IMG/VR virus record: IMGVR_UViG_3300042430_000389
Coordinates: 1-39,541 of that record
Reading direction: 5' to 3' (one strand)
DNA: 39,541 nucleotides
Origin: a virus
In this document: in pieces, positions 11,631 to 38,926 of the stretch
How positions within the stretch are numbered: the stretch's first letter is position 1
How the letters are laid out: each line of letters opens with the position of its first letter
Notes under the pieces: generated by a model
What the model was told of the DNA's origin: nothing
The model's database searches: none
The model's input: the letters and a program-made list of their open reading frames with translations, nothing else
Program-made: the position numbers and the translations under genes

Positions 11631-12244
11631 ACTGCTACCTTCTCCCTAAAGAATTGGTGTCCGTGTTTAATGTACATACTGTTAACATCTTCGCCATCGT
11701 TCATTGGTATTACAATTGTTCCTTGGTTTTCCTTCGCAATCTTCTTCGCAAAATCCGAACCAGGCTGATCCCCGTCAGCAAATACATAGATAGTCTGGAA
11801 GTCTTGGAGGAGTAACGAGTAGTGTCTCTTCCACGAGTTAGCCCCAGGAACGCCAATTGCCGGGATACCACACTTCTGGTGTAATGTGATCGTGTCGATC
11901 TCTCCTTCGCATACCGCAATGAAATCACCTGCCTGTTGAATTGCTTGTACGTTGTATAGTCTTGTCTCTACCCCTGGCATACCCATATACTTTGGTTCAC
12001 TACCATCAATAGATCGGAATCGTATGTCTACTACACCGGTCTCTGTGATGTATGGTATTGCTAGTCTGCCAGCGAATTGCTCATGCCCTAGAAGAGGCTC
12101 CTCTACGTACCCTAGGCGGGCTGTAACCGCGTCTTGCAAGGTTATGCCCCTCGTTGCGAGATACGCTTCTGCTCTTTGCACCGCTTGCCCGTAGTGTAGT
12201 GCTGCTCTGTCCAGTAATTCCTTCTGCGATCTTGACTGCTTCAC
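11627..12244 (-). CDS. Primase Toprim subunit (DnaG-like), 205 aa
   Basis: The protein carries a Toprim domain: CEGEIDTITL (112-121) and VFADGDQPG (154-162), with a GVPGANSW loop between. This is the catalytic half of DnaG-type primase. The GTG start at 12244 is preceded by AAGGAG at nine bases, lying inside the zinc-finger gene, so separate initiation is well supported. The two genes overlap by 164 bases. The start region (LLDRAALHYGQAVQRAEAYLATRGI) is the normal linker found in intact primases. Confidence 0.85.
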   Translation of the reverse strand: MKQSRSQKELLDRAALHYGQAVQRAEAYLATRGITLQDAVTARLGYVEEPLLGHEQFAGRLAIPYITETGVVDIRFRSIDGSEPKYMGMPGVETRLYNVQAIQQAGDFIAVCEGEIDTITLHQKCGIPAIGVPGANSWKRHYSLLLQDFQTIYVFADGDQPGSDFAKKIAKENQGTIVIPMNDGEDVNSMYIKHGHQFFREKVAV

Positions 12245-12455
12245 GAAATCCTACTCCTTCTTTCTCCATAATTATGCTATACGTATCACCTTTTACCCCA
12301 CATCCGAAGCAGTTAAACGCATTTTCCTCAACATTTACTGTTGCTGATGCGTGACCATCATCGTGGAATGGGCAACGTAACTTAACCCAACCGTACTGTT
12401 CTCTTACTGTCGCACCGTAATGCTCCAGTATTGGCTGTATACTGTGCTTCTCCAC
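12081..12455 (-). CDS. Primase zinc-finger (CHC2) subunit, 124 aa
   Basis: The CHC2 zinc finger is clear: C28-P-F-H31 and C49-F-G-C52, with the typical CPFHDDGHASATVN and FNCFGCGVKGD. Residues about 63-84 (MEKEGVGFREAVKIAEGITGQ) continue the DnaG pattern, after which the frame's tail (ASGAKSRSVSRNEG...) reads as low-quality sequence on top of the Toprim gene. So this ORF either ends as a separate zinc-finger polypeptide or once fused to Toprim through a frameshift. It starts at a GTG overlapping the resolvase stop (TAGTG). Confidence 0.75.
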   Translation of the reverse strand: MEKHSIQPILEHYGATVREQYGWVKLRCPFHDDGHASATVNVEENAFNCFGCGVKGDTYSIIMEKEGVGFREAVKIAEGITGQSSTTLRASGAKSRSVSRNEGHNLARRGYSPPRVRRGASSRA

Positions 12456-12790: not shown

Positions 12791-12867
12791 TAGTAATCAC
12801 CTCGGTCTATGTAAAGTATTAGTGCAAGTAATGCCGTCAACACTAATCCTATTACCCAGTCAATCAT
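12790..12867 (-). CDS. Single-span membrane mini-protein, 25 aa
   Basis: The sequence MIDWVIGLVLTALLALILYI followed by DRGDY is one hydrophobic span with a charged end. Its ATG overlaps the helicase stop (ATGA) and its stop overlaps the resolvase GTG (TAGTG), so the gene is locked between two translationally coupled neighbours. This gene is too short for many gene finders. Function unknown. Confidence 0.7.
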   Translation of the reverse strand: MIDWVIGLVLTALLALILYIDRGDY

Positions 12868-13646
12868 CTCGCCTCCTCAAGGTCAGCAAGATACATATAC
12901 TCTGGATTGAACTGTAACCACACAGGCGTATTGCCTGATGGATCAGCCTTTCCGTACCGGTTCTTAACAGATGCCACAGCCATCAATCCTTGATGCTGCC
13001 CAAGAGTTAGGATAAGTGCAGGGATCTGGTTAACCATACCTTGAATAGCATCACGTGATGGACAAGGATCAGCACCGTAAGATTCCTTAGTGTGGTGCAG
13101 TACAATCACAGCAGAGTTATTCTTACGTGCTATGTACTTGAGTTCCTGAATCACAGATTGCATACCCACGTGACCATCGCTACCACCATTGTAAACATCC
13201 ATTAAGTTATCCACAATGATTAGTGCAGGTGGTTCACCTAACAGTTCCTCGATAGCACTAACCTCATCAGTTATGTCACCTAGTCCAGGGTTAGAATCGA
13301 ATGACCAGTAGATGTGCTTAGCCCTTGTCAATGCCTGACGTGCCACGTCCGGACTCTCACCGATAACTTGCTCAGCCTCACGCTGAGATACTCCCTCGAT
13401 CATTGAGTACAAACGCATAGCCATAGTGTGAGCATTGGTATCAGCAGAGATGTATAGCGTTGGTTCACGCATACGTAGTGCTAGTGCTAGAGCAAGGGTT
13501 GACTTACCAGCCCCAGGTTGTGCAGCAATTACTGATACTTCTGAACGTCTAAAGACTACTTGATTGTTTTCAAATGCACGAAAGACCGGTAGCATTGGTT
13601 CTCCACCAATATCCTTACGTCCTACGGACCTACCTAATGTCTTCAT
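12864..13646 (-). CDS. DnaB/RecA-like replicative ATPase, 260 aa
   Basis: The Walker A motif is AAQPGAGKST (41-50) and Walker B is ALIIVDN (141-147). A later segment, AVIVLHHTKES, matches the DnaB/RadA core. It lacks the DnaB N-terminal domain, so it is a core-only helicase or loader-like protein. An ATG with GAAGGAGGAAA immediately upstream gives strong initiation. It is adjacent to primase and resolvase genes and is likely the phage replicative helicase. Confidence 0.85.
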   Translation of the reverse strand: MKTLGRSVGRKDIGGEPMLPVFRAFENNQVVFRRSEVSVIAAQPGAGKSTLALALALRMREPTLYISADTNAHTMAMRLYSMIEGVSQREAEQVIGESPDVARQALTRAKHIYWSFDSNPGLGDITDEVSAIEELLGEPPALIIVDNLMDVYNGGSDGHVGMQSVIQELKYIARKNNSAVIVLHHTKESYGADPCPSRDAIQGMVNQIPALILTLGQHQGLMAVASVKNRYGKADPSGNTPVWLQFNPEYMYLADLEEAR

Positions 13647-15907: not shown

Positions 15908-16466
15908 CCACGATTAACCATTGTTGTTCTGGATAAATCCTGCGTCTTATCTCGAAGTTGTTGAGGCTAGCCGTTGGCATAAACCAACCGCTGTACCCGT
16001 GTACATCTCTGTGCGTTTCTTGTTCTGCTTCGGTTAACGATCTGTTAACAATGTCGAAGACACCACTGTCACAAGTCCATTGATCTCGGTAGATCTTTAA
16101 TAGATCATCAAGCATCCACAGTTGATTTTGTACTGCCTTGTTTGGATTGCGAACGTCTAAGTTATCCAATGATATGTCTAGTTCTTTCATACCTTTTTGG
16201 TGTGTCTCGAAGTAAGTGTAACGTCTCTCTAACGATTGTATAACAATATCGTCAAACCTTGCTACATTTTTTGCATAGTTCAAGCCGTCAAGTGGACAGA
16301 CTTGGTTGCGCCACCTACCTGCCAGCGTACCACCACCGAAAGCACCACCAAAATAATCCCACCAAGTAGGATTAACCTCACCATAAATGTTAAGGAACTT
16401 ACTTGTATTTTCCCTAGCCTCTTGCAAGTCCTTGCCCTCAGTCAAGAGTATCTGATAAGTATGCAC
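15891..16466 (-). CDS. Hypothetical actinophage protein, 191 aa
   Basis: A GTG start at 16466 with GGAG at about seven-base spacing overlaps the WhiB gene by 29 bases. The sequence has Gly-rich and aromatic motifs (WWDYFGGAFGGGTLAGRW) and a helical centre with several charged residues. The C-terminus contains FEIRRRIYPEQQWLIVVDFHF. No family recognised and no membrane span. Its close coupling to WhiB may mean shared regulation. Confidence 0.7.
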   Translation of the reverse strand: MHTYQILLTEGKDLQEARENTSKFLNIYGEVNPTWWDYFGGAFGGGTLAGRWRNQVCPLDGLNYAKNVARFDDIVIQSLERRYTYFETHQKGMKELDISLDNLDVRNPNKAVQNQLWMLDDLLKIYRDQWTCDSGVFDIVNRSLTEAEQETHRDVHGYSGWFMPTASLNNFEIRRRIYPEQQWLIVVDFHF

Positions 16467-16815
16467 TACGTATCTCCTGTTCTATTCTAATCATTTCTAC
16501 TTGCTTGTCAAGTAATTCGCTGAAGTTTGTTACCGGTATGTCGCGCATAATCCTCTCAGATCTACGCTCAGTAGCGGTCATACCACCCCAGAACCCATAC
16601 TCCTCGTTGTTGATAGCCCACTCACGACACGCCTGTACCTCTGGACAGGTAAGACATACCCTACGTAGGTAGGCGTGTTGCTTTGGTGCAGTCGAGATGT
16701 AACTCTCCCACCTAGTATCTGTGTCGTGGTTCATAGATTCTGCTACGACATAATCGTCATAGAATAAATCTGAATCCAACCCCTTACAGTTTGCATTCTC
16801 AAAGTCAGGTAACAA
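16438..16815 (-). CDS. whiB: WhiB family iron-sulfur regulator, 125 aa
   Basis: Four cysteines fit the WhiB cluster pattern: C10 (ANCKG), C54-x2-C57-x5-C63 (CLTCPEVQAC). The signature YGFWGGMTATERR follows at about 73. WhiB proteins hold a 4Fe-4S cluster and bind the primary sigma factor to control transcription. A TTG start at 16815 with AGGAG at seven bases is chosen over a TTG at 16845; the 11-base overlap with the upstream gene supports it. A C-terminal helical tail extends past the core. This is the key evidence for an actinobacterial host. Confidence 0.92.
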   Translation of the reverse strand: MLPDFENANCKGLDSDLFYDDYVVAESMNHDTDTRWESYISTAPKQHAYLRRVCLTCPEVQACREWAINNEEYGFWGGMTATERRSERIMRDIPVTNFSELLDKQVEMIRIEQEIRSAYLSDTLD

Positions 16816-16981
16816 GATCGTACTCCTCTTCCTCTGCCCATTCAATCTTATTCATTATGTCACTATCTGCTATGTAATCTAGTAGATCAAACACAGCCTC
16901 GCGTTGAGACATACTATACATTCGCTTAGTTAGTTCAGTATCCCACCAATATCCGAATGTCATATGCGCCTTAGCCTTCAT
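16805..16981 (-). CDS. Hypothetical small acidic protein, 58 aa
   Basis: The ATG at 16981 has AAGGGAG seven bases upstream and overlaps the previous stop by 11 bases (ATG-N5-TAA). An aromatic centre (TFGYWWDTELTKRMY) is followed by helical segments and an acidic tail (EWAEEEEYDLVT). No family recognised. It precedes WhiB in the operon. Confidence 0.65.
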   Translation of the reverse strand: MKAKAHMTFGYWWDTELTKRMYSMSQREAVFDLLDYIADSDIMNKIEWAEEEEYDLVT

Positions 16982-17231: not shown

Positions 17232-17415
17232 GGCATAACTCCTGTACTTCATCATTAATTTCTATGTCTTTTACAATAGCATACTCAAAGTATTTATCTC
17301 CAAGTACACCCAATAGTTCATACACTTCATCAGCAGATAGGCTAAGCCTAACACCTTGAAGTGTCAGTAACCAACCGTCCTTACGGACTTCACTCTTGAC
17401 TAGGCTAGTCAACAT
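17221..17415 (-). CDS. Hypothetical small protein, 64 aa
   Basis: The ATG overlaps the stop of the glutamine amidotransferase by one base (TGATG), with GGAG five bases upstream. The first half is beta-rich (SLVKSEVRKDGWLLTLQGVRLSL), the second is helical and acidic (DEVYELLGVLGDKYFEYAIVKDIEIND). No family recognised. Coupling to the amidotransferase may mean a shared function, but this is inference. Confidence 0.65.
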   Translation of the reverse strand: MLTSLVKSEVRKDGWLLTLQGVRLSLSADEVYELLGVLGDKYFEYAIVKDIEINDEVQELCRES

Positions 17416-18239
17416 CAGTACTCCATTCCATTGTAGTTGTGCTGTGCCACAGTAGGATTGTAGCACAAGCAAGCGACAGCGTGATCGTAACATTCAAGGC
17501 AAGAGTTACATACGGTACATACACCGTCATACAATCCTTCCTCTGTAACCTTACTCATACATACATAGCAGGTATAGTCAACCTGTTCCAACTCTGCGGT
17601 TAGTGCCTTGCGATCTGCATCTAGTAGATCCTCGCTAGACCATAGTCCACGTGAGTAGTAACCCGAACCATAGAACGTGTACGAGTGCTTGTAACTAGAG
17701 TTAGACCACCATACATCCTTGTCCCAAGTACCGAGATCCTCGTTGACAATGTACACAGAGTCACGTAACTCTGGTGCAGTAGTTAGGATAGCCAACTTAC
17801 TACCGGCAGCCCAACCCTCTAACCTCTTGAATGAATCCTTGTCGTCAAGGGATTCGACACCTAGGTTAGGTAAGATATCCTCTGCGAAGATGCGCGTGTC
17901 AGAACGCCGGTCACCCTGCTTGGGGTGGATAGGTAGCATACCGTTGTGACCAAGGATAATGTCCTTGCGACCACCTACCCTGAATGGGTGAGCGTTCTCG
18001 ATAATGCTATCGCCGTGCGTTGTGATACGAGCGTGATACATAGCGACAAAGTCAGTACCTGCACCATCGAGTGCATTGAAGAACTTGTCGATAGTTTTCT
18101 GTGCATTCATACCACGACTCGTAATGATACGGTCGCCGTAGTGAATGGCATAGCCGAACCCGTCAGGGTTATTGTTGCTTGCATTAACAATGCTGTTGTA
18201 GTCAGGAACCTGACCCATTGTTACCATTAATAAACACAC
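17415..18239 (-). CDS. Class II glutamine amidotransferase (Ntn hydrolase), 274 aa
   Basis: A GTG start gives Cys at position 2, the catalytic nucleophile of class II amidotransferases after Met removal. Family motifs follow in order: NPDGFGYA (24-31), YHARITTHG (68-76), NAHPF (82-86), LGHNGML (96-102) and SDTR (113-116). The C-terminus adds a Cys-rich segment (CYVCMSK and VCTVCNSCLECYDH). The reaction is glutamine hydrolysis to release ammonia. The gene immediately upstream encodes an amidoligase-like protein, which suggests a joint amide-bond pathway. The leader carries palindrome site 1. Confidence 0.9.
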   Translation of the reverse strand: MCLLMVTMGQVPDYNSIVNASNNNPDGFGYAIHYGDRIITSRGMNAQKTIDKFFNALDGAGTDFVAMYHARITTHGDSIIENAHPFRVGGRKDIILGHNGMLPIHPKQGDRRSDTRIFAEDILPNLGVESLDDKDSFKRLEGWAAGSKLAILTTAPELRDSVYIVNEDLGTWDKDVWWSNSSYKHSYTFYGSGYYSRGLWSSEDLLDADRKALTAELEQVDYTCYVCMSKVTEEGLYDGVCTVCNSCLECYDHAVACLCYNPTVAQHNYNGMEY

Positions 18240-18261: not shown

Positions 18262-18277
18262 GATTATAATTATAATC
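18262..18277. repeat. Palindrome site 1 (variant)
   Basis: GATTATAATTATAATC is a perfect 16-base palindrome, a variant of the GATCATAATTATGATC core repeated at five other sites. It lies immediately before the Shine-Dalgarno of the amidotransferase gene and touches the stop codon of the amidoligase gene. It also contains TATAAT in both directions. Confidence 0.8.
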
Positions 18278-19502
18278 ACTCTGTGTTTTCGTCTGGTGTT
18301 ATTTGAAAGTCTGGCAAGTATTGTACCAGATCTGGATACTTACCCTGCTTGCGTACCCAAGAGGCAAACTCCTCAGGGCGTAGCATTACGCTAGCATTAG
18401 CACCGCTTCGTATGTCACGTGTGTACTCAACCGAAGCGTGGCAGAACTGAATGGCACTACGGACACGCTCTACCTTGAGCGAACCCTTGAACATTCTAAC
18501 CTCTACCGTGTGTGTATTCTGCAAGTTGATAGCGTTGTACCTATCGCCACCTCTAGCAGAACTATGACGGCGTTTGATAGTAAGCACGTTATCTATCTTA
18601 GCACCCTCATTAACGATACCATAGTGAGAGTTGCGACCGGCAATGTGGCGACATAGATTCTCATTACGGTTGATCAGATAGGTGAACGCGAGCAAGTGAG
18701 TACGGTCAGTAAACGCTCGCCTATCTATGTGTACGTGTAGCCCACAAGTACCGGCATTCCACGACCTGAACCCTGCATCACGCAACTTATCAAGCGTACC
18801 CCAATCAACGTGATCTTGGTAATACTCAAGCGTTGCAGGGTGAGTGACTATCTCGAAACCAAAGTTAAGTGATGAGTCCTCCTTGAGATACACAAAGTCA
18901 CCCCAAGAATCTGTCATAGTTTCAGCACCCGAAGAGTAGTCACCGTTAGCAGCCTCAACCTCTAACTCCATACCAAAATACAGATGCTTGTCAGATGATC
19001 CGTGAAATACTGGCGTTGGTTTGTAACTGTAGTTGTGTACAAACTCAGAGTCAGGGTGACACATCTCGTCGTGCCACTCATACTGATCACACATTGAACA
19101 CCAGTTAGCAACTCTAGAGATACAACCAGAGCAGTAACAACTATCACCACTACCCACATAGTTAACATCATCAGTAGTAAAGATGCCATCACATCTCTCA
19201 CACTCACGATAGTTCTCTGTGCAATCACCACAGTATTCACCAAGAGTGTAGATACCACTGATCTCATTATCTAAATGGTAGTCACCACAGTCAGCACACT
19301 TATTAGTGCAGGTGTCACAGGCATAGACATCTTCGTACGTGAACTCGCGAGTCGTGTAGTTCCAATGTCCTTTCTGTGTCGTGTAATGCCGTTCGTTATC
19401 GGCATCATAATCAAACGCATCACCACAAGAGTAACACGTTATCGCAACAACAACTTCGATAGACTCGTTGTTACTATCAACAGAGTCAATGATCTCAGTC
19501 AC
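18276..19502 (-). CDS. Amidoligase (COOH-NH2 ligase-like) with N-terminal zinc-finger array, 408 aa
   Basis: The N-terminal 150 residues contain multiple CxxC-type pairs (CYSCGD, CDTCTNKCADCGD, CGDCTENYRECERC, CYCSGC, WCSMCDQ), probably zinc-binding treble-clef units. The catalytic part shows FGMELEVE (176-183), KEDSSL (207-212), FEIVTHP (216-222), CGLHVHID (253-260), RYNAINL (321-327) and TVEVRMFKG (332-340), matching the putative amidoligase family as I know it. Such enzymes join amines to carboxyl groups with ATP. The GTG start has AGGAG at six bases, preceded by palindrome site 2. The partner amidotransferase is downstream. Confidence 0.85.
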   Translation of the reverse strand: MTEIIDSVDSNNESIEVVVAITCYSCGDAFDYDADNERHYTTQKGHWNYTTREFTYEDVYACDTCTNKCADCGDYHLDNEISGIYTLGEYCGDCTENYRECERCDGIFTTDDVNYVGSGDSCYCSGCISRVANWCSMCDQYEWHDEMCHPDSEFVHNYSYKPTPVFHGSSDKHLYFGMELEVEAANGDYSSGAETMTDSWGDFVYLKEDSSLNFGFEIVTHPATLEYYQDHVDWGTLDKLRDAGFRSWNAGTCGLHVHIDRRAFTDRTHLLAFTYLINRNENLCRHIAGRNSHYGIVNEGAKIDNVLTIKRRHSSARGGDRYNAINLQNTHTVEVRMFKGSLKVERVRSAIQFCHASVEYTRDIRSGANASVMLRPEEFASWVRKQGKYPDLVQYLPDFQITPDENTE

Positions 19503-22468: not shown

Positions 22469-22516
22469 GCAAACCCTGTCGGTTTGCTAGTATATAATAC
22501 ACCGCTTGTTGCGGTG
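22469..22516 (+). promoter_or_regulatory. Candidate late promoter flanked by two inverted repeats
   Basis: TATAAT at 22493-22498 lies between GCAAACC-CTGTC-GGTTTGC (22469-22487) and CACCGC-TTGTT-GCGGTG (22500-22516). No good -35 is seen at the normal distance, so it may need an activator or the phage sigma-like factor. It precedes the terminase gene. Confidence 0.5.
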
Positions 22517-22559
22517 TTGTATGTGTGTTGTATTTGGATGTTGTTTAGGATGTGTTTCG

Positions 22560-24452
22560 GTGGCTGCTAGGACAGGTGCATTGCACCATACGGTAATTAA
22601 GCAGAATGAGGACCAAGCGAAATTTCTGGCTTCTGTAGCGTCAGGCGTATCAGAACACGCTGCGCTGGGTATAGTAGGTCGTAAACCTGCTGCCTTAAAG
22701 ACGTGGCTCCGGGACCCTAAGTTCGCTATGAAACTTGAGGATGCGCGGGGCGAGTCTAACGCCCTTATGAGCGAGACCCTGGTTAATGGCAAAAAGATTG
22801 ACTTTGCCACCTTCTCCAAGGAGTTCCTAGGATCTGAGGTATTCCCTCATCACCAGTCTTGGATTGATGTTTTAGAGGGGCAAGCCCCATCTTGGCTCCA
22901 CCCATCTATGACCTTTGAACCTAGCAATCGCCGCCGTATGTTAATCAACGTACCGCCCGAGCATGCTAAGTCTACGGTTCTAACGGTTGGCTACGCTACC
23001 TACCGTATTGCAATGGATCCCAACATCCGCATTGTTATCGTATCCCAAACCCAGACCCGTGCTAAGGAATTCTTGTATTCCATTAAACAACGTCTGACAG
23101 AAGACAACTGGGCCAAACTCCAAGGTGTCTATGGACCAGCCGGTGGCTGGAAGGAAACAGCGGATCAATGGACTGCCGACCGTATCTACTTGGAACGTTC
23201 ATCTGGCGAGAAGGACCCAACCGTCCAAGCCATTGGTATGGGGCAACAGATTTACGGTACTCGCGCAGACCTGATTATTTTGGACGACGTGGTCACTACT
23301 ACCAACGCCCACGAATGGGAGAAGCAACTCAACTGGTTGCAAAAGATGGTTATTACCCGTGTCGGAGCAACCGGTATGCTCATTATTGCAGGGACTCGAG
23401 TCTCTTCGGTAGACCTCTATAAAGAGATCCGCAACCCAGATAACTGGTCTGGAGACAAATCCCCCTTTACTTATTTGGCTATGCCAGCAGTTCTAGAGTT
23501 CGCTGATAAAAAGGAAAACTGGAAGACGCTCTGGCCCATCTCCGACCGTGTTTGGGATGGTGCAGATCCAGATAACGAAGATGACTCAGAACTTTTAGTA
23601 CAGGACGAAAATGGATACTACCCTAAATGGGATGGAAAACGCCTCTTCCAACGACGCAGTGAGGTTAACCCATCTACATGGGCTCTCGTATACCAACAGC
23701 AAGATGTCGAAGAAGACGCGATCTTTCCCCCTGCGCTTGTTAACTCCTGCGTTAACCGCATGCGCAAGCCTGGTCCTCTCAACATGGGCGCGCCTGGACA
23801 TCCATCGGGAGGACAATGGGTAACCATTCTGGGCTTTGACCCTGCTATGTCAGGGCATGCTGCTATGGTTGCTTATGCTGTAGAGCGTGAGTCCGGAGAG
23901 CGTATGGTTCTGGATGTGTATAACATGGCAGATCCAACCCCCCAAAAGATCAGAGCACTCATGGAAGACTGGGTGCTTAAGTTTAGACCTATTGAATTAC
24001 GCGTTGAAATCAACGCACACCAGAAAGCCTATTCCCTAGACGAGGATCTGCGGATGTGGATGGCTAATCGCGGTGTACAGATGAGAGAACACTTTACTGG
24101 TAAGAATAAGTGGGATGTTAGTTTCGGTGTGGCTTCCATGTCGAATCTCTTTGGTGCAATGCGCGATGGCAAATTCATTGGGGGTAATCTAATTACCCTA
24201 CCGGATGCAAGTAACGAGCATATCAAGGCTCTTGTAAACCAGTTAATTACCTGGAAACCAGATACCAAGAACAAGACTGACGTAGTCATGGCTCTTTGGT
24301 TCTGTGAGATTCGGGCTAAGGAACTAGTTCAAAGCAGTATGAACCGAGTTCACCACATGAACTCAAGGTATGCAACTAGAAGAAACATGTCCCAGCGAGC
24401 AGTTATTGATTTAGATGAACTTGCTGCAGATCAACAAGTAATTTATATTTAG
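22560..24452 (+). CDS. terL: Terminase large subunit with N-terminal helix-turn-helix-like region, 630 aa
   Basis: A GTG start at 22560 has AGGA nine bases upstream; the in-frame ATG at 22506 lies inside the upstream hairpin and gives a Cys-rich unlikely leader. Walker A reads NVPPEHAKST (about 131-139) and Walker B LIILDD. The nuclease part has GFDPAMSG (D about 427), RVEINAHQ and KTDVVMALW. Residues about 15-60 (EDQAKFLASVASGVSEHAALGIVGRKPAALKTWLRDPKF) resemble small-terminase DNA-binding helices. No separate small terminase is seen, so the two activities may be fused. Confidence 0.93.
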   Translation: MAARTGALHHTVIKQNEDQAKFLASVASGVSEHAALGIVGRKPAALKTWLRDPKFAMKLEDARGESNALMSETLVNGKKIDFATFSKEFLGSEVFPHHQSWIDVLEGQAPSWLHPSMTFEPSNRRRMLINVPPEHAKSTVLTVGYATYRIAMDPNIRIVIVSQTQTRAKEFLYSIKQRLTEDNWAKLQGVYGPAGGWKETADQWTADRIYLERSSGEKDPTVQAIGMGQQIYGTRADLIILDDVVTTTNAHEWEKQLNWLQKMVITRVGATGMLIIAGTRVSSVDLYKEIRNPDNWSGDKSPFTYLAMPAVLEFADKKENWKTLWPISDRVWDGADPDNEDDSELLVQDENGYYPKWDGKRLFQRRSEVNPSTWALVYQQQDVEEDAIFPPALVNSCVNRMRKPGPLNMGAPGHPSGGQWVTILGFDPAMSGHAAMVAYAVERESGERMVLDVYNMADPTPQKIRALMEDWVLKFRPIELRVEINAHQKAYSLDEDLRMWMANRGVQMREHFTGKNKWDVSFGVASMSNLFGAMRDGKFIGGNLITLPDASNEHIKALVNQLITWKPDTKNKTDVVMALWFCEIRAKELVQSSMNRVHHMNSRYATRRNMSQRAVIDLDELAADQQVIYI

Positions 24453-24459
24453 GAATAAT

Positions 24460-26214
24460 ATGACTTTGTCAATCGACCAAATTAGCGACAAGGTTAGTAT
24501 CCTCACGCAACGTAACGCTACACGCGATTCACGCATGCGGGATATTACCGAAGTACGCCGTGGTAACATGGAAGCAGTCTATCCAGACATGTTCCCTGAA
24601 GGCTTATCAAAGCCGATGATTGCCAACTTTGTGGACGTTGCAGCCCGTGACATTGCAGAAGTACTAGCACCGCTACCTTCAGTTAACTGCTCATCCATTA
24701 ATAGCAAGTCAGAGAAATCAAAGAAGATTGCTGACAATCGTTCAATGATTGCCAACAACTACATTCAGTTCTCTAAACTGCAAACACAGATGTACACTGG
24801 TGCAGACTGGTATAATACTTATGCCTTTTTGCCCATTGTAGTTGAGCCTGATTTCCAGGCTAGAATGCCACGTATCCGCATAGAAAACCCTATGGGTGCT
24901 TACCCTGAATATGACCGCTATGGGCGATGCATTTCATTCACAAAGAAGTATTACAAAACACTGGGAGAGTTAGCAAACGAGTTCCCCGAATACGAGACCC
25001 GTATTATCGGTAAACTCGGACGTGACATGGAAAACATGAACACGTTGCTTGAGTTGGTGCGCTATGAAGACGCAGACCAAATCGTGCTCTTCCTACCGCA
25101 GCGCGATAATCTTGTGCTGCGTAGCACGAGAAACCCACTAGGAAAAGTTTCCGTCGCAATTGCCCGTCGTCCAGGAATTGATCCGGACGATCCGAGAGGT
25201 CAGTTCGATGATGTACTTTGGGTTCAAATTGCTCGTGCTAGATTTTCTTTGCTTGCTATGGAAGCAGCAGAAAAGTCAGTACAGGCTCCTATGGTTGTAC
25301 CACAGGACCTACAAGAATTTACATTTGGTCCAGATGCCGTACTTCGTACATCTAACCCAGCAGGCGTACGCCGTGTAGGACTGGAACTACCACCAGCAGC
25401 ATTCCAAGAACAGCAAGTTCTTGAAGCAGAAATGCGTATGGGCTCACGTTACCCTGAAGGTCGCTCTGGTCAAATTGATGCAAGTATTATTACTGGTTCT
25501 GGTGTTCAAGCACTACTTGGTGGCTTTGATACTCAGATCAAGGCTGGACAAATGATTCTGGCTGAAGCCTTTGAGCATGTTGTTAAACTTTGCTTTGAGA
25601 TGGATGAGAAACTATTCCCAGGTGAAAAGAAGCAGAATGGTGTATTCCAGGGTGCTCCTTATGAACTAGCATACTCACCAGAAAAAGATATTGCTGGACA
25701 GTATGAAGTTCAAGTACGCTACGGTTTGATGGCTGGTCTTGATCCATCACGTGCTCTTATCTTCTCTCTACAGGCTTTACAAGCCAATCTAGTTTCTAAA
25801 GACTTTATCATGCAAGAACTGCCATGGAATATGAATGTTTCACGCGAGCAGGAACGCATTGATATAGAGCGGATGCGCGATTCACTATCGGCATCTCTTG
25901 CTGCTACAGCCCAAGCAATCCCGCAGATGGCATCACAGGGACAAGATCCTTCCGCGATTATTTCAAAGATTGCTCAGACTATCAAAAAGCGTCGTGAGGG
26001 CTTATCTATCGAAGAGGCTGTTGCTCAGGCGTTCCCTGCGCCTGAACCAGTTCAGCAAGCACCAGCACCAACAATGAGTGAAGCACTTGGTGCAGCACCT
26101 CCTCAACCTCAACCAGAGATGCCTCCAGCACCTCCAGAAGCAGCAATGCAGGCTCAGCCACAGCAGGCTCCTCCTACTGATGTAGCATCAATCCTTGCTC
26201 AGATCGGTGGATAA
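24460..26214 (+). CDS. Portal protein, 584 aa
   Basis: It follows terminase directly and precedes the protease. The start (DKVSILTQRNATRDSRMRDITEVRRGNMEAVYP) and the middle (WYNTYAFLPIVVEPDFQARMPRIRIENPMGAYPEYD) fit podoviral-type portals. The C-terminus is Pro/Gln-rich (PAPEPVQQAPAPTMSEALGAAPPQPQPEMP), probably disordered. A phage portal forms the DNA channel at the capsid vertex. The assignment rests on gene order, size and fold character. Its stop overlaps the next ATG (TAATG). Confidence 0.85.
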   Translation: MTLSIDQISDKVSILTQRNATRDSRMRDITEVRRGNMEAVYPDMFPEGLSKPMIANFVDVAARDIAEVLAPLPSVNCSSINSKSEKSKKIADNRSMIANNYIQFSKLQTQMYTGADWYNTYAFLPIVVEPDFQARMPRIRIENPMGAYPEYDRYGRCISFTKKYYKTLGELANEFPEYETRIIGKLGRDMENMNTLLELVRYEDADQIVLFLPQRDNLVLRSTRNPLGKVSVAIARRPGIDPDDPRGQFDDVLWVQIARARFSLLAMEAAEKSVQAPMVVPQDLQEFTFGPDAVLRTSNPAGVRRVGLELPPAAFQEQQVLEAEMRMGSRYPEGRSGQIDASIITGSGVQALLGGFDTQIKAGQMILAEAFEHVVKLCFEMDEKLFPGEKKQNGVFQGAPYELAYSPEKDIAGQYEVQVRYGLMAGLDPSRALIFSLQALQANLVSKDFIMQELPWNMNVSREQERIDIERMRDSLSASLAATAQAIPQMASQGQDPSAIISKIAQTIKKRREGLSIEEAVAQAFPAPEPVQQAPAPTMSEALGAAPPQPQPEMPPAPPEAAMQAQPQQAPPTDVASILAQIGG

Positions 26215-26732
26215 TGACTACGATCATTGCTGTACAAAACAGCAAGGGTTTTGTCTTTGCTGCTGATGCACAAGTAACTGACACTGAACGACCATACATG
26301 CATAAAAGCATGAAGAAGGTTGTTGAAGTTAATGGTTATGTTATGGCTGGTGCAGGTAACTCACGATGCTGTGATGTTATCTTATTTGGCTGGAAGCCAC
26401 CTGTATACGACGGAACAGAACCCTACACTTTTATGGTGTCAAAGTTTATTCCTGAGATGCGCAAACAGCATGAAGATGCTGGTATAACCCTTAAGGAAGA
26501 CGAAGACTTTGTTTTCCTAGTTGGTTTTAGTGGAAAAGTATTTCATATTGCTGGTAACTATGCGGTACTAGAAACCAATACTGGTTTGTATGGCATAGGA
26601 ACTGGAGCGGCATATGCGCTTGGTGCTTTAGCCCAAGGTGCAACAATACAAGAAGCAATAAAAGTTGCTAAGAAATTTGATATTAACACTGGTGGAAGAA
26701 TCCAGATAGTTGAAAGAGGTTACCATGGCTAA
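26214..26732 (+). CDS. HslV/proteasome-like Ntn hydrolase, candidate prohead protease, 172 aa
   Basis: After Met removal the sequence starts TTIIAVQNSKGFVFAADAQVT. Compared with HslV, Thr1, Asp17 (in AADAQVT) and Lys33 (in HKSMKKV) fall exactly at the catalytic positions. The C-terminal part (YGIGTGAAYALGALAQGATIQEAIKVAKKFD) also matches the proteasome/HslV fold. Located between portal and scaffold/capsid genes, it may process capsid proteins in place of a serine prohead protease. Neither an HslU partner nor a propeptide is seen. The next gene overlaps by eight bases. Confidence 0.87.
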   Translation: MTTIIAVQNSKGFVFAADAQVTDTERPYMHKSMKKVVEVNGYVMAGAGNSRCCDVILFGWKPPVYDGTEPYTFMVSKFIPEMRKQHEDAGITLKEDEDFVFLVGFSGKVFHIAGNYAVLETNTGLYGIGTGAAYALGALAQGATIQEAIKVAKKFDINTGGRIQIVERGYHG

Positions 26733-27153
26733 AGGCGGACCACGCCCATACCGGACAACAAGCCAAGAAAAGGCTGTATCGGGTCCAGGTAAACTATCTG
26801 AGCGTACAGACATGGTTCCATCAGGTGGAGCATACGGTGATCGTAAACAATACGAAGAACAAGTTGCTGGCGCACCTATTTCAAAAGGTACTTCAACGCC
26901 AAGGATGCAAGCACAATCTGCTCCAGCAAAAAAAATTGCTTCATTGTTTGATCCAACAAGCAATCCAGATCAACCAGTTACTGATGGCGTTCCTATAGGT
27001 CCTGGTTATTCACCACCACCTCCAGTTAACTCTAAGTACGCTATGGTCGCTAAGTACATGGACCAATTAGAAACTATGGCAGCAGATCCATCTGCTCCTG
27101 ATACATTCAAAACTTTTGTAACATACGTTCGTCAAGAAGCATCTAAGGCTTAG
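26725..27153 (+). CDS. Hypothetical disordered protein, 142 aa
   Basis: An ATG at 26725 with GAGG five bases upstream is preferred. The protein is Gly/Pro/Lys-rich at the start (MAKGGPRPYRTTSQEKAVSGPGK) and ends in a helix (SKYAMVAKYMDQLETMAAD...TFKTFVTYVRQEASKA). It lies between the protease and the giant protein, with an eight-base overlap. Its position suggests a head assembly or internal virion role. No family recognised. Confidence 0.7.
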   Translation: MAKGGPRPYRTTSQEKAVSGPGKLSERTDMVPSGGAYGDRKQYEEQVAGAPISKGTSTPRMQAQSAPAKKIASLFDPTSNPDQPVTDGVPIGPGYSPPPPVNSKYAMVAKYMDQLETMAADPSAPDTFKTFVTYVRQEASKA

Positions 27154-27156
27154 TTT

Positions 27157-27324
27157 ATGATTTTGGCTCGCAACATTGCAGCATTTACCAATATGTTTGG
27201 TTTGAAGAACGCTGATGTTGTCATGCCCTTTTCCCTTGTGAACTGGGATACTGAAGATGAACGCGATCAGTTCTTAACTGAACTCCTAGTAATGAACAAT
27301 GGCTACAAGGTTGGTGACGAGTAA
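27157..27324 (+). CDS. Small protein, 55 aa
   Basis: The ATG three bases after the previous stop opens a frame that ends in a TAATG overlap with the giant gene. The sequence (MILARNIAAFTNMFGLKNADVV ... FLTELLVMNNGYKVGDE) is balanced and reads as a folded small domain. Function unknown. Its weak Shine-Dalgarno is compensated by tight packing. Confidence 0.65.
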   Translation: MILARNIAAFTNMFGLKNADVVMPFSLVNWDTEDERDQFLTELLVMNNGYKVGDE

Positions 27325-30300
27325 TGGCACTAATCGGTAGAGACAGTATTTTTGAAAACATTAAGTCTAATGTTGAAGATAACACTGCAGATTTAATTAC
27401 TAGTATCGCTAACACAACTGTTGGTAAAAAAACGTTTGAGGTACTAGAGCGGGCTGCTGAGCCATACCGCGATACCGTAGCACCAAACTTAACTGCTGCC
27501 CTAATGGTTGCTAACCGTAACTACCAGAATCAAAATAAAGGCAAATCATTAACTGAGTTATACGATTACGCTAAAAAAGATGCAGTAGCATCATCTCAAG
27601 AATATTACGACAACGATCCATCACAAGCATGGCGACGTAAGATTTCTCCAGGACGTGCACTGGTTGCACTTATAGGTGACATTAAGCGCGGCGAACAGGC
27701 TACAGACAAAATTGATTGGTCTAATGCTAGTTCAGTAGAGTCTGTATTTACTTCTGGTTCTGCACAGTTTTACTCTGGTCTTGGTGATATCGGCTTTAAC
27801 TTACTTGATCCATTATTTGCTGTAGCAAAGGCTGGTAAGGTTGCTAAGATAGAAGCACTTAACCGACCGCTTACACCAGGTGGTGTAGTAAAGCGTAAAG
27901 TTAATACAGGTCGCATGGAAACCCTTGTTGATGATATTAACAAAGCAGCAGCAAATAAGCCAAGTCCAATCAAACCACTCTTTGATTTAATTGATACTGG
28001 CGATGTTCTTGCTGTACAGAGTTACGGATTTGTAAGTCGTTCAAGTAATTCTAACAAACTTGCTCAAGCACTAATTGATGCTAATCAACTTGGTGGTCGT
28101 CAGTTGTCTGCTGAAGTTGCAAAGATTGCAATTGGCGATACTGCATCATTTTCCGCATTGACTCGTAAGTACCCACAGTTAACGGCACAGATGAATGCTG
28201 TTACCGGACGTATTGACTTTGTTGAAAACCAAATCAAAACAATCCAAGATACTATTCAGCCAGTTCCAACTAAGCGTGGAAAACTAACTGCTGAAGAAAT
28301 CAAGGGCATCGAAGCATTTAATAAAAAAGCAAATGCTGAGATTAAAGAACTTAAGAAGCAGAAGAAAACGGCAGAGAAAGAACTTAAGCCACTTGCTAGA
28401 GAAGAAGCCTTTCAGAGCAGAGTTGGTGCAGTTCCTTTAACAGCAGAAGAATCTGCAGTTCTTGCACGTGAGGGAGGACAGCAGACTGTATTCCAATCTG
28501 CAACTACATCTACTTGGTCTCGCTCTGAGTTCATTGAACAGCGTCGTGCTCGTTCAGCAGCATTAAATGCTCGTGGTTTCTGGAATGACTTTGGTGAAGA
28601 TACTCCAACATATGCAAATGAAATGTTTCAGGCTACAAAGGCTGAGGCACGATTTATTCGTGTAGTAGACTGGTTTAGTCCTAACGGTAAGTTGCATGAA
28701 ACACCTGCCGGTATTGCAATCATTGATGGTATACCTGGACACTTTAGTCAGCAGGAAGTAGATTCACGTATTCGTGCTGCTGTTCGCAAGGGTGACATGA
28801 CAGTTGCTGAGGCAAAAAGATGGTCACAGTCTTACTCAAAGAAAAACGAATCTTCAGAACGCTTTCAGTTCCTAGATAAACTTGAAGAAAGAAGTTTTGT
28901 TGGAATCTTAAAGAAGCAGTTCCCTGAACTTGCAGAAAAGTTTACAGCAGAACAGAATGAACTACTATACCAGGTTGTTCGCAGTATGTTACAGACTACG
29001 CGCGCTAAGCGTCGTGAACAAATTGGTGACATCATTGACAAGAACTACACAATGGTTGATACACGAACTGGTAAACTTGTAGTTAGCAGTCATATTAAGA
29101 ATCTTGTTGAACAGGGCGCAAAGCGTATTGCAGAAAAAGAAGGCGCACCTGAAATAACTAAGACTCACATTAAACTTGCAGAAAAAGCACTACGAGAGAA
29201 TCCGTCTTTAACTTCACAAATTCCTAATACTCACTTTTCTACAGATCTAAACGAAGTTGCATCTATCATACGAGAAGATCCTTTCTTGTTCCAGGATGTT
29301 ATGCGTCGTGTTGCAAATGGTGATACAGAAGTCCTTGCTCAGGTACGTAAGTACAACGAAGGAGCAGTGCAAAGCACCCCATCCGGTATTGCACTTCCAT
29401 TCGAGGCTGCTGGCGCAGTAGGAAAACAAGGATACGACAAGGTAGTTAACGCACTAGATACGTTCTACACATTTGTATGGAAGCCAACTACCCTACTTAG
29501 CCTTAAGTACACAACACGTAACGTATTTGAAGGATACCTTCGCGTTGCTGCATCTATGGTTGACATGAACTCCGCATATGGCTACGGCTGGAGCGAGATG
29601 GTTCGTGGATTTAATGCAGGTAAACTAACTGGTGCAATCAATGCGGTAGAAAACGTAGTAGAACGTAGTCAAGCAAAGTCTGCTAGTCGTAAATTTGACG
29701 ATCTAAACAATGAACTAGTTATTTCAGACGCAAAAATCTACACATCTGTTGGTCCTTTAACCAAGAGTGGTAGAAAGATTGCTGCTAAAGCAATCACTGA
29801 TACCCGTAAGGCTGCAGACAAGGGAGTATTCCAGGCAAACGATGGTTTGTCTATGACTATTGCTGTTGTCGAAGGTAGGTTCAGAGCGGTAAGCAAGATT
29901 GCTGAAGGCAATGCACCATCACCTGCAGCCATAGAGATTAACTCTGCCTACAATGAACTACGTAACAAGATTGTTAGTGGTCAACCTGGAGGAGACTTCC
30001 TACCGATACTCTTTGATGAGGACTTTAGATCAGCAACTGCTAGACTAATTCAGTTAGATCCAGAAGATGGCTATGCAGCACTAAAGTATCTAGATGAAAT
30101 TATTGATGAAGCATCACAGAAGATTAACAAAGTTAATACTTCAAGATCTGGACCAATAATGAAGACCCACAAAGAAGAACTAGTGTTCTTCTTGGATAGA
30201 GTAAAACTTCATACTGCTCACCTTCGTACTTTCCTTGATGAAAGAAATGCAATAGGTGGTAAGATTGTTGAAGCATCTGGTAAGATAAAGCCAAACATTA

Positions 30301-32864
30301 AGCGTAGTTTTGAAAAAGACGTTACGCTACCTGGTGGTGCTACAATTGGTGGTGCTCTTTCTGGTAAGTCCGGCGAGGCTATGCGTGGATCAACCAGTGC
30401 TCATAACTCTAGCATCCGTTTGCTTGATAGAGATATTCGTGTAACGGGTGCTCACATTCTAAAGAGTGGTAATCGTAGCGCACCTATTGACATTGATAGT
30501 TCTATGTGGGCTTCTGCTCATGCTGAATACATTAACAACGTAGTAATGAACGATGTTGTTGCCAGAAGAGCGGTTGAAATGTTTGCTGATGGAGCAAGCA
30601 TTCAAAAAGTTCAAGCAGAACTGCAACGCTTCGTAAAGAGCAACGACAAAGATGCCTTGATCTGGAGAAGAGAACGCAAGGTTGACTACGAAAATCGCAA
30701 CGAAATGGTTCCAACAAGTTGGAAAGATGAAGTTGACGCTATTATTGAAGGTCAAGTTCTTTTATACCTACGTCCGGTAGATGCATTTGGCGATGAATTA
30801 ATGATTAAAGCAGCAAGAGGTGGACTAACTGCTGCTGATTCATCTAAGATTCCTATGTCCTTGCGTGAACGAGTTCAAGGTGATACTGCAATTACTGCGT
30901 TGAACGCAGCAACAATGGGTAAGAACATTGTTCGTACAATTTTCCACTTCATTGGAACGCTACCTGAAGATCATTTGATTCGTCATCCGTTCTACAACAT
31001 GGTATACACCAGTGAAGCAAACCGTTTAGCAAGAATGCTTGATGCTCAGGGTAAGGATCCTGGTGCATACGCAGCACAGATTCGTTACAATGCTACTTCT
31101 CGTGCATACAAAGAACTTATGCAGCGTATGTATAGCGTTGAACGCTACACCGATCTTGCAACTTTAATGCGCTTCGTAGCACCATTCTACATGGCACATC
31201 AGAACTCAAGTCGCTTCTGGTTAGGTACATCTATCCGCAATCCTGAGGTTGCAATTGCACTTGCCAAGGGATACAACGCACCATTCCGTGGTGGATTCGT
31301 AGAAGATGAAAATGGTGATAGTGTATCATGGAGCAATCCTTGGACATCATCACGTAATCTTGCTATTGTAAAGATTGATTCATTGCCTATCAGCAAGAAT
31401 CTAAAGAACAAGATTAAAGACTCTACCGGTCAAGACTTTATTGGTTTACCTCCAGGTCAAATGGATGTTATTACACAAGGTCAACTGCCTATCGTACAGA
31501 CTCTTGGTGGTCCAGTAGGTCAAGTTGGTGGCACACTATTTCTTGGTTGGTTGTCTGACAAGACGTATGATCCAAATACCGTACTCGGTAAGATGGGTAT
31601 GAACGTAGATGACTTCCAAAAATACATGATGCCATACTACGAAAAAACTTATGGTGGCAGTATAGCAAGTCAAGTAGGTTCTGCTATTAACCCACTTACA
31701 ACTAACTCATGGATTCTATCTGGTTTATCTGCTGTATCAGAAGGTAAGATACCATTCCCAGAAGTAGAAGCACGTTTCCGTGCACGTAAAGAAGCAGCAT
31801 ATGACATGCTTGTTATTGAGAATACGCTTAACGGTCAGAGTATTGGTCACGATAAGTTATCTGAAATGGCTGACGAACGTGCAAGAAACTCACTATACGT
31901 AGAAGCAGCGTTCTCATTCGGTGGTCCTGTTGTTGCTGGTAAACTAGGAAACGAACAGTTCCGTCAGTTGAACCAAGAATACACTATGCTACAAAAGCAG
32001 TATGGTGATCCTGATGCAGCATCAATTGCGTTTACTAAGATTATTGAAGAACGATACAATAATCCGCGTTACGTAGATGCTATTACTCGTGTAGTAACTA
32101 CTCGTTCTGCAAGCAATAAGTTTGGTTTATGGGCTACTCCAGCAACAAGCAATGCGCTAATGAAGAACAAGTCATTAGTAGAATCTGTAGATGCTTCATA
32201 TCCAGACAATTCAATTGTCGGTGTAATGTTTAATCAGGGCAACACTGCAACTGATTACAGTCCAATTATTGACGACAACTACTTCTCTACAACAATCAAT
32301 GGTAAGCCAATTCGTCAGAAACTTACTAACGATGTAGAGCGTAGACGTTCTCAGCAATACTCGCAAGCATGGGAAACTTACATGAATGCGATTGAGTTCA
32401 TCGAAGATGATGCTAAGTCTCGTGGTATTCAAAAGGGAACAGACGTTTACAATGAATACTATGGTGCGTGGAAGAAGCGCGCTGAGAATATGGTAGCAGA
32501 ACAGTTCCCATTATGGGGGGATCGCAATAAGGGATTCACTCAGAACGAGTCTGATAACAGTGTCAAGGTAATCGAACGCTTCTTAGCAGATGAAAAATAC
32601 ATGAGTACCGTTGGTAATGATCTCGGTAGTGCTCAAGCATTGAAACAATATGTTGAGGGCAGAGAAGTTATTATTGCTGAACTTGAAGCATGGAGAGCAG
32701 CAACTGGTACCAAGAGTATAGATGCAAAGACTAACGTCTGGTTTGCTGACTGGAGAGATCGAATGGTTGATGAAATCATTAGACAACATCCAGAGTTTAA
32801 GCCTATCTATACTCGTTACTTACAAGACGATACATTCAATCAACTAGTGGATTACTCCTCGTAA
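27324..32864 (+). CDS. Giant virion protein, 1846 aa
   Basis: This is one gene of 1846 codons, about 14 percent of the window. The protein is mainly helical and mixed-charge, with a Lys/Glu coiled-coil stretch near residues 325-360 (IEAFNKKANAEIKELKKQKKTAEKELK), and conserved-looking blocks such as TRNVFEGYLRVAASMVD and LMRFVAPFYMAHQNSSRFW. No enzyme motif (such as a transglycosylase or peptidase) could be recognised by eye. Its size and placement between portal and scaffold resemble internal ejection proteins of podoviruses. Two helical companions follow. The role is inferred from context. Confidence 0.75.
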   Translation: MALIGRDSIFENIKSNVEDNTADLITSIANTTVGKKTFEVLERAAEPYRDTVAPNLTAALMVANRNYQNQNKGKSLTELYDYAKKDAVASSQEYYDNDPSQAWRRKISPGRALVALIGDIKRGEQATDKIDWSNASSVESVFTSGSAQFYSGLGDIGFNLLDPLFAVAKAGKVAKIEALNRPLTPGGVVKRKVNTGRMETLVDDINKAAANKPSPIKPLFDLIDTGDVLAVQSYGFVSRSSNSNKLAQALIDANQLGGRQLSAEVAKIAIGDTASFSALTRKYPQLTAQMNAVTGRIDFVENQIKTIQDTIQPVPTKRGKLTAEEIKGIEAFNKKANAEIKELKKQKKTAEKELKPLAREEAFQSRVGAVPLTAEESAVLAREGGQQTVFQSATTSTWSRSEFIEQRRARSAALNARGFWNDFGEDTPTYANEMFQATKAEARFIRVVDWFSPNGKLHETPAGIAIIDGIPGHFSQQEVDSRIRAAVRKGDMTVAEAKRWSQSYSKKNESSERFQFLDKLEERSFVGILKKQFPELAEKFTAEQNELLYQVVRSMLQTTRAKRREQIGDIIDKNYTMVDTRTGKLVVSSHIKNLVEQGAKRIAEKEGAPEITKTHIKLAEKALRENPSLTSQIPNTHFSTDLNEVASIIREDPFLFQDVMRRVANGDTEVLAQVRKYNEGAVQSTPSGIALPFEAAGAVGKQGYDKVVNALDTFYTFVWKPTTLLSLKYTTRNVFEGYLRVAASMVDMNSAYGYGWSEMVRGFNAGKLTGAINAVENVVERSQAKSASRKFDDLNNELVISDAKIYTSVGPLTKSGRKIAAKAITDTRKAADKGVFQANDGLSMTIAVVEGRFRAVSKIAEGNAPSPAAIEINSAYNELRNKIVSGQPGGDFLPILFDEDFRSATARLIQLDPEDGYAALKYLDEIIDEASQKINKVNTSRSGPIMKTHKEELVFFLDRVKLHTAHLRTFLDERNAIGGKIVEASGKIKPNIKRSFEKDVTLPGGATIGGALSGKSGEAMRGSTSAHNSSIRLLDRDIRVTGAHILKSGNRSAPIDIDSSMWASAHAEYINNVVMNDVVARRAVEMFADGASIQKVQAELQRFVKSNDKDALIWRRERKVDYENRNEMVPTSWKDEVDAIIEGQVLLYLRPVDAFGDELMIKAARGGLTAADSSKIPMSLRERVQGDTAITALNAATMGKNIVRTIFHFIGTLPEDHLIRHPFYNMVYTSEANRLARMLDAQGKDPGAYAAQIRYNATSRAYKELMQRMYSVERYTDLATLMRFVAPFYMAHQNSSRFWLGTSIRNPEVAIALAKGYNAPFRGGFVEDENGDSVSWSNPWTSSRNLAIVKIDSLPISKNLKNKIKDSTGQDFIGLPPGQMDVITQGQLPIVQTLGGPVGQVGGTLFLGWLSDKTYDPNTVLGKMGMNVDDFQKYMMPYYEKTYGGSIASQVGSAINPLTTNSWILSGLSAVSEGKIPFPEVEARFRARKEAAYDMLVIENTLNGQSIGHDKLSEMADERARNSLYVEAAFSFGGPVVAGKLGNEQFRQLNQEYTMLQKQYGDPDAASIAFTKIIEERYNNPRYVDAITRVVTTRSASNKFGLWATPATSNALMKNKSLVESVDASYPDNSIVGVMFNQGNTATDYSPIIDDNYFSTTINGKPIRQKLTNDVERRRSQQYSQAWETYMNAIEFIEDDAKSRGIQKGTDVYNEYYGAWKKRAENMVAEQFPLWGDRNKGFTQNESDNSVKVIERFLADEKYMSTVGNDLGSAQALKQYVEGREVIIAELEAWRAATGTKSIDAKTNVWFADWRDRMVDEIIRQHPEFKPIYTRYLQDDTFNQLVDYSS

Positions 32865-34722: not shown

Positions 34723-35232
34723 ATGAGTAACAACAATCAAGACTGGTTAGAAGAACTCGATGAAGATTTCGATCTTGAATACGAGTTTGACGAAGAACCT
34801 CAGCGTGGTCGTCGCGGTAATCCAGACGATGCTCTGAAAAAGGTTCGTCGTGCAGAACGTGCTAAAGAAAAGCGAATCAAGGAACTCGAATCTGAATTGT
34901 CATCGTTGAGAAAGTTTCAACGTGATTCAGTTGTTCAATCCGTTTTGAACGAGAAGGGTGTAAGCAATAAAGTTGCATCTTTCATTCCATCTGATCTAGA
35001 GACAACGCCTGAGGCGATCAACTCTTGGTTAGAACAGAATGCTGATGTTTTCGGTATTCAAATTGCTCGTCAAGAATCCGTTCTTAATGAGCAAGATATT
35101 AGTACGCTTCGTCAAATTGACGATGCCACATCTAATGCCCTCTCCGTGGAAGCAAGCAATGATATTATGTCAATGATTGCTAACGCATCAAGTGCTGACG
35201 AAATCATGGAAATGATTTACGGAAGCGAATAA
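34723..35232 (+). CDS. Scaffolding protein, 169 aa
   Basis: It is strongly acidic at the N-terminus (WLEELDEDFDLEYEFDEEP), then has a charged coiled coil (VRRAERAKEKRIKELESELSSLRK) and a helical C-terminus (ISTLRQIDDATSNALSVEASNDIMSMI). It sits directly before the capsid gene. This is the usual architecture and location of a phage scaffold that templates capsid assembly. Assigned by architecture and context. Confidence 0.8.
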   Translation: MSNNNQDWLEELDEDFDLEYEFDEEPQRGRRGNPDDALKKVRRAERAKEKRIKELESELSSLRKFQRDSVVQSVLNEKGVSNKVASFIPSDLETTPEAINSWLEQNADVFGIQIARQESVLNEQDISTLRQIDDATSNALSVEASNDIMSMIANASSADEIMEMIYGSE

Positions 35233-35260: not shown

Positions 35261-36271
35261 ATGCCGAATACAGGCTTATCCGGTGGCAGTGCCGGTACTA
35301 ACGGCGGTCTTGGTGGTGGCGCATACGCCTCCGCTAACAACGTTGGTGCTTTCACCCCATCTAACGGTGCTGGTTTAGTTCAGAAGGCGTACGATCGCCT
35401 TGTTGAATTTGAACTACGCGCTACCCCATTGCTACGTTCAGTAGCAGACAAGAAGCCTGCTCGTCAGGCTATGCCAGGTTCTTCTGTAGCACTACAGATT
35501 TACAACGACCTAGCAAAGGTAACATCAGAACTATCTGAAGATGTAGATCCAGCAGCAGTTGCTCTTGGTACTCCAGATATCGTAACCGTAACCCTAAAGG
35601 AATACGGTAACGCTACTCTAGTAACCAAGAAGTTGCAGTTGCTATCTCTTGCAGACGTAGATCCTGCTGTTGCAAACATCATTGCATTCAACATGGCTGA
35701 TAGCATTGATGACCTAGCACAGGAAGCACTGCTTGCAGGTACTAACGTACTATACGCAACCGGTGGAACAACCACAGCAACCACAACTTCAGGCATCACT
35801 TCAGATGATACACTATCTGCTGCTGATATCCGTCGTGCAGTTGCTAAGTTGCGTACCAACAAGGCTAACGGACGTAAGGGTTCACTATACTGGTGTGGTA
35901 TTCACCCAGAAGTTTCCCATGACCTTCGTGCCGAAACTGGTGCTGCTTCATGGCGTAACCCACACGAGTACCAGAGCAACGATGCAATCTGGGCTGGCGA
36001 AATTGGTCAGTTTGAAGGTGCATACTTCATTGAGTCCCCACGTCTAAAGAAGGCTAATGACGGAGCAAGCAGCATTCCTGTTTACCGTACATTCCTTTGT
36101 GGACAGCAGGCACTTGCTGAAGCAGTGGCAGAAGAGCCACACGTAGTTATTGGTCCAGTTACTGACCGCTTGATGCGTCACCGTCCAATCGGATGGTACG
36201 GCGTTCTTGGTCATGCTGTATACCGTGACGAAGCACTCTTCCGTATTGAGTCCGCTTCAAGCATTGCTTAA
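35261..36271 (+). CDS. Major capsid protein (possibly N4-gp56-like), 336 aa
   Basis: The Gly-rich N-terminus is followed by the pattern of major capsid proteins: helical FELRATPLLRSVADKKPARQ, a beta-rich central part with TPDIVTVTLKEYGNATLVTKKLQ, and a C-terminus IGWYGVLGHAVYRDEALFRIESASSIA resembling N4-gp56-type capsid proteins from memory. The position after a scaffold and before three consecutive hairpins agrees. The family label should be checked; the capsid role is well supported. Confidence 0.85.
   Translation: MPNTGLSGGSAGTNGGLGGGAYASANNVGAFTPSNGAGLVQKAYDRLVEFELRATPLLRSVADKKPARQAMPGSSVALQIYNDLAKVTSELSEDVDPAAVALGTPDIVTVTLKEYGNATLVTKKLQLLSLADVDPAVANIIAFNMADSIDDLAQEALLAGTNVLYATGGTTTATTTSGITSDDTLSAADIRRAVAKLRTNKANGRKGSLYWCGIHPEVSHDLRAETGAASWRNPHEYQSNDAIWAGEIGQFEGAYFIESPRLKKANDGASSIPVYRTFLCGQQALAEAVAEEPHVVIGPVTDRLMRHRPIGWYGVLGHAVYRDEALFRIESASSIA

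Positions 36272-36831: not shown

Positions 36832-38925
<2,094 letters not shown>

Positions 38926-38926
<1 letters not shown>

Follow-up and report, generated by a model that had tools for sequence, protein, structure and literature searches.

Proteasome homologues encoded by phages have already been described, and the HslV-like protein reported here is a further member of this assemblage. Three phage-associated groups, PPH, AAH, and CPH, lack both an assigned function and an AAA+ partner (Fuchs, Alva, Lupas 2021, PMC8665760) and belong, like the protein reported here, to the phage-encoded proteasome-like proteins of group I. The PPH are defined by a length of ~140 residues and a missing second helix (H2), and no AAH was reported in actinobacterial phages by the 2021 survey (PMC8665760). 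Phage members of PHROG 1040 (such as Vibrio phage phi 3 gp135, Geobacillus virus E3 GP65, Moorella phage MTATph1, and Tenacibaculum phage pT24) belong to the same family by profile, are likewise phage-encoded, and share a Thr/Ser1-Asp17-Lys active site; those examined occur in large phages, in regions of nucleotide-metabolism or hypothetical genes away from the head genes, whereas the gene described here follows the portal gene. Tailed-phage head maturation proteases, such as phi 3 gp072, are also encoded between portal and capsid, though in phi 3 the annotated gene is separate from the HslV-family member of the same genome.

The gene is located in a 39.5-kb virus record (the window, used here for the whole stretch of DNA that was analysed) from a freshwater actinobacterial virus, with a WhiB gene in the window pointing to an actinobacterial host. 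The features of the window that bear on the gene are as follows.

12864-13646, - strand: DnaB-like helicase of the replication block, the homologue of which lies directly beside the HslV gene in the relatives G001 and G003
16438-16845, - strand: WhiB-like regulator (PF02467, E 1.9e-12)
22506-24452, + strand: terminase large subunit, TerL (phrog_38)
24460-26214, + strand: portal protein (phrog_104), its stop sharing one base with the HslV-like start (TAATG)
26214-26732, + strand: HslV/proteasome-like Ntn hydrolase ORF (phrog_1040), 172 aa, ATG start
26725-27153, + strand: phrog_8200 protein, with an ATG at 26725 that overlaps the HslV-like stop by 8 nt (TTG at 26710 in the ORF list)
27324-32864, + strand: giant virion-type protein, 1846 aa (phrog_10618)
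34723-35232, + strand: scaffold-like protein (DUF4355-like, phrog_7813)
35261-36271, + strand: major capsid protein, MCP (phrog_1357, PF13252)

The + strand order is thus TerL, portal, HslV-like, phrog_8200, the 1846-aa protein, two ~285-aa proteins, scaffold, and MCP. The original prediction, made from the DNA alone, had placed the gene between the portal and the capsid module, which is correct in that it lies between the portal and the scaffold/MCP; the MCP is not adjacent, however, being 8.5 kb downstream and separated by the 147-aa, 1846-aa, two ~285-aa, and scaffold proteins.

The ORF matched phrog_1040 ("peptidase HslV family") across its whole length (PHROGs; E 1.2e-32) and the Pfam Proteasome family (PF00227; 25.2 bits versus a gathering score of 22.4), and its product matched solved HslV chains (phmmer; E 2e-5). 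The HslV-family match is far above chance. The top PDB sequence hits of the ORF, to dTor, were rejected as spurious repeat matches. A single-chain AlphaFold model of the product, built with 25 phage homologues, had a pLDDT of 90.3 and a pTM of 0.88, and all 1000 realigned PDB chains had Z ≥ 8 against it (best, 17.5), indicating a proteasome-type Ntn fold. The nearest structures, the beta-proteobacterial proteasome homologue (BPH; Z 17.5), HslV (Z 17.2-17.4), and Anbu (Z 16.9), are effectively tied. The best structural match, BPH 5ovt (rmsd 3.0, 159 aligned residues), has the same compact subunit, but only 19% identity to the phage protein. With HslV (ClpQ, of HslUV) the protein shares fold, length, a Met-Thr start, and the Thr1/Asp17/Lys triad; it differs in an additional residue before the Lys, in the lack of any HslU seen in the phage, and in scoring 32.2 versus 157.75 and 33.8 versus 137 bits against the NCBIfam equivalog cut-offs (TIGR03692 and NF003964, respectively), both of which a cellular HslV control clears (271.8 and 279.6 bits). 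Scores so far under the cut-offs identify the protein as a proteasome-like homologue and not HslV itself. Helices at residues 50-59 and 70-88 of the model precede the next strand; as the PPH lack helix H2, which the model (172 aa) possesses, membership in that group is excluded. Based on its predicted fold, the protein is probably a group I type threonine peptidase with an HslV/BPH-like subunit, and the HslV-like Ntn hydrolase first proposed for this ORF is borne out by PHROGs, PF00227, phmmer, and the model. Close pairs of the gene have dN/dS values of 0.06-0.13, by which it is under purifying selection and its product almost certainly functional.

Conservation of the predicted active site was counted over 97 distinct homologues, out of 136 in all.

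26217-26219, + strand: codon of Thr1, the predicted nucleophile (residue 2 with Met); Thr in 95/97, Ser in 1 (pT24), gap in 1
26265-26267, + strand: codon of Asp17 (residue 18 with Met); Asp in 94/97, Glu in 2, gap in 1
26316-26318, + strand: codon of the catalytic Lys34 (residue 35 with Met); Lys in 96/96 homologues having a residue there
26598-26606, + strand: G-[S/T]-G motif, aligned with the HslV GSG (Ser124 region); Gly in 94, Thr in 56 or Ser in 38, Gly in 94, with Thr in the window

The oxyanion Gly47 is also kept (95/97), and the Met-Thr start means that removal of the Met would expose Thr1. Of the triad originally proposed to be in register with HslV, Thr1 and Asp17 stand, while Lys33 does not; residue 33 is variable (K, P, T, R, H, Q, S, or V) and, counted without the Met, the invariant Lys is residue 34, since HslV is one residue shorter than the phage proteins between Asp17 and the Lys. 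Thr1, whose variability among homologues was to have counted against the original prediction, is as conserved as listed above. Judged from the aligned homologues, the active site is intact and conserved, and the enzyme is apparently active.

Several relatives of the window do not possess the gene. A first count gave 46 loci without HslV beside the portal, mostly fragments that are undecidable for absence, and was rejected as a count of HslV-less relatives as the near-complete G001, G002, G003, and G048 carry the gene elsewhere; as the other loci are mostly fragments, the absence is instead based on six near-complete contigs from one related clade (G040-G045, 37.6-41.9 kb) and on complete Streptomyces phages. 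No homologue was detected in G040-G045 using hmmsearch --max (best E 0.14), and the three with complete gene maps (G041, G043, and G045) begin and end at different genes, so gaps at contig ends cannot account for all of the absences. These three have 57-58% (TerL), 56-59% (portal), 38-39% (scaffold), and 47-48% (MCP) identity to the window. The gene is also absent from the complete genomes of four Beephvirinae-type Streptomyces phages, of which Immanuel3 has an MCP 53% and a portal 46% identical to those of the window. Both sets of HslV-less genomes retain TerL, portal, scaffold, and MCP. The HslV-less clade could represent a different assembly variant (MCP of 395 aa versus 336 aa), and there is a slight chance that extreme divergence rather than true absence applies in these genomes.

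In relatives with an empty slot, the phrog_8200 gene lies directly behind the portal; in L090, with a portal 72% identical to that of the window, it starts at the same TAATG with no HslV between. If the HslV-like gene had displaced a prohead protease, another protease would be expected in the HslV-less slots, and this candidate scenario was rejected, as the slots hold no substitute, only an empty junction or an ORF of 72-86 aa without a family match. These small ORFs (L095:2780-3028, L099, L110, L131, L143:3853-4107, and others) have a strongly acidic C-terminus (EEEED/DEDED), and in L161-L165 the HslV gene starts ~250 bp past the portal, leaving room for such an ORF. A further difference in this part of the genome is that the Streptomyces relatives have their giant-protein block separated from the scaffold/MCP genes by arrays of 14-22 tRNA genes (16040-17988 in L085 and equivalents in L086-L088); the window has no annotated tRNA and no room for one at this site.

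The position of the gene is not fixed. It is next to the portal in 115 loci, including the window's own clade, and outside of the head cluster in five genomes: in G001 and G003 it is in the replication block, adjoining the DnaB-like helicase, and in G002, G048, and G050 it closes the early block and is transcribed from the other strand than the late operon, as are most of the relocated genes. In G053, the HslV N-terminus is at a contig end. In G002, G048, and G050 the gene follows one for a glycosyltransferase-like protein, recognized by eye and without a family match; such a protein is coupled directly upstream of the relocated gene in three genomes, at the loci below.

L179:9715-10305: glycosyltransferase-like ORF
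L332:13735-14319, - strand: glycosyltransferase-like ORF
L333:7792-8454, - strand: glycosyltransferase-like ORF

The gene also appears to have moved between phage lineages. L128 and L154 are 86% identical in HslV and 56% in the portal, and L078 and L153 are 68% and 52% identical, respectively. Phages that have no HslV at that position possess portals with 74-79% identity to the portals of L128 and L078. G001 and L063 have portals that are 87% identical, yet L063 has its HslV behind the portal and G001 has a version only 29% identical, in the replication block. On the portal tree, the state 'next to portal' changes at least nine times. The HslV and portal trees disagree and, as read from these comparisons, the gene has been exchanged horizontally between phage lineages, independently of the portal. 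A cellular origin was pursued without success, as the genome contigs searched gave no relative and the tree left the phage group unrooted; 396 Actinomycetota yielded just two matches, one to a stretch of 45 residues on a single contig and the other to a canonical HslV that neighbours HslU. This HslV/HslU pair (L348 / G209:C56) is from a lone actinobacterial assembly (1/296) and may belong to a contaminating contig.

The original prediction also held that the protein matures the capsid or the giant protein. Under a version of this reading restricted to a phage subgroup, it would be a prohead/ejection-protein protease that cleaves the scaffold, the capsid, or the 1846-aa protein, consistent with a gene that in the window and the 115 loci lies between the portal and the scaffold/MCP and is coupled to the portal stop. 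Translational coupling behind the portal implies late, structural-phase expression at that site, an arrangement typical of morphogenetic genes that argues against an accessory role. Nevertheless, a prohead protease should be kept with the MCP and scaffold, and two clades, represented by near-complete and complete genomes, retain the same capsid genes without HslV. The gene sits in the replication or early block of other relatives, its tree differs from that of the portal, and the slot, where empty of HslV, holds no other protease. A capsid propeptide that tracks HslV was sought and rejected; the MCP has a Gly-rich N-terminal extension (~20 residues, 35261-35340), but it is confined to the closest relatives of the window. 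In Vibrio phage phi 3, the HslV-family gene adjoins an exonuclease gene and the annotated head maturation protease is 58 kb away, between portal and MCP. A gene that is dispensable, relocates, and is exchanged in this way probably encodes an infection-time protease and not a shell-maturing enzyme; the role first assigned to it is probably wrong, and the prohead reading is now improbable even for a subgroup. This comparison counters the positional argument by which a protease next to the portal is taken for a prohead protease.

Two other readings were considered. In one, the protein supplies the proteolytic component of a hybrid machine, in which its ring would dock on an AAA+ unfoldase of the host (ClpX, ClpC, or Mpa/ARC) and divert the breakdown of phage or host proteins. 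The window ORFs that were scanned included no AAA+ unfoldase, in agreement with the original prediction that the phage has no unfoldase gene, and proteasome-family subunits occur in 131 of 296 sampled Actinomycetota, both of which favor a borrowed partner. HslU exceeded the cut-off in just 1/296 of the same sample and, with no unfoldase in the scanned phage ORFs, is itself an unlikely partner. Novel proteasome homologues, phage ones included, nonetheless occur without a co-occurring AAA+ partner (Fuchs et al. 2021, PMC8665760), and a hybrid machine is unlikely, if somewhat less so than a prohead protease. Least probable of all is that this Ntn hydrolase does something other than degradation, such as specific processing, connectase-like ligation, or the hydrolysis of small amides. 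The ligase connectase does belong to the proteasome-like family (PMC8665760) and the window encodes an amidoligase/GATase pair, but the model has no connectase-type insert or extra domain, being a compact subunit like BPH/HslV, and the amidoligase does not co-occur with HslV. A link to this pair was rejected on its patchy distribution (amidoligase in 10/33 related genomes and absent from many with HslV), and the HslV-less G041, G043, and G045 carry it. In the window, the class-II glutamine amidotransferase-like gene (GATase_4; 17415-18239, - strand) adjoins that of the amidoligase (Amidoligase_2; 18276-19502, - strand).

The reading favored here, at a probability of roughly 60%, is that the HslV-like protein is an accessory threonine peptidase that acts inside the host cell during infection and is not the prohead protease. 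Removal of the Met would expose Thr1, the subunits would form a single or double ring, possibly the self-assembling chamber of the original prediction, which may cut unfolded or peptide substrates, either host proteins or, as quality control, phage proteins. It would do so without a dedicated unfoldase, by analogy with the ATPase-free action proposed for BPH-like homologues, or would rely on a housekeeping ATPase of the host. On this view, the location behind the portal would reflect a place where an inserted gene can be expressed and would not point to function. More speculatively, phages of the dominant freshwater Actinobacteria might carry their own unfoldase-independent, proteasome-like chamber to remodel the proteome of the infected cell (host shut-off, amino-acid recycling, or counter-defence), as a mobile module with an early or late expression class that varies by lineage; this wider scenario is tentative and has the odds somewhat against it.

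What is new relative to the earlier descriptions is the way in which the gene has been relocated, lost, and exchanged across the family, together with the host setting, a conserved proteasome homologue now being known from phages that infect Nanopelagicales-type hosts. Such hosts are amongst the most abundant freshwater bacteria. Two cultured relatives of the window, Planktophila phages E7 and F5 (OX376640 and OX376641), both carry the HslV-like gene, in E7 directly behind the portal (L084). As these phages are in cultivation, isolated on 'Ca. Planktophila' (PMC10202952), and carry the gene, the role of viral proteasome homologues is directly testable.

Two further features of the window were noted outside of the HslV-like region. 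A DnaG-like primase (11627-12455, - strand) is encoded in two overlapping ORFs, with a CHC2 zinc finger and a Toprim domain, and similar overlapping pairs are present in relatives. Downstream of the MCP, a tail fibre of 589 aa (37157-38926, + strand) contains collagen repeats (E 3.7e-35).
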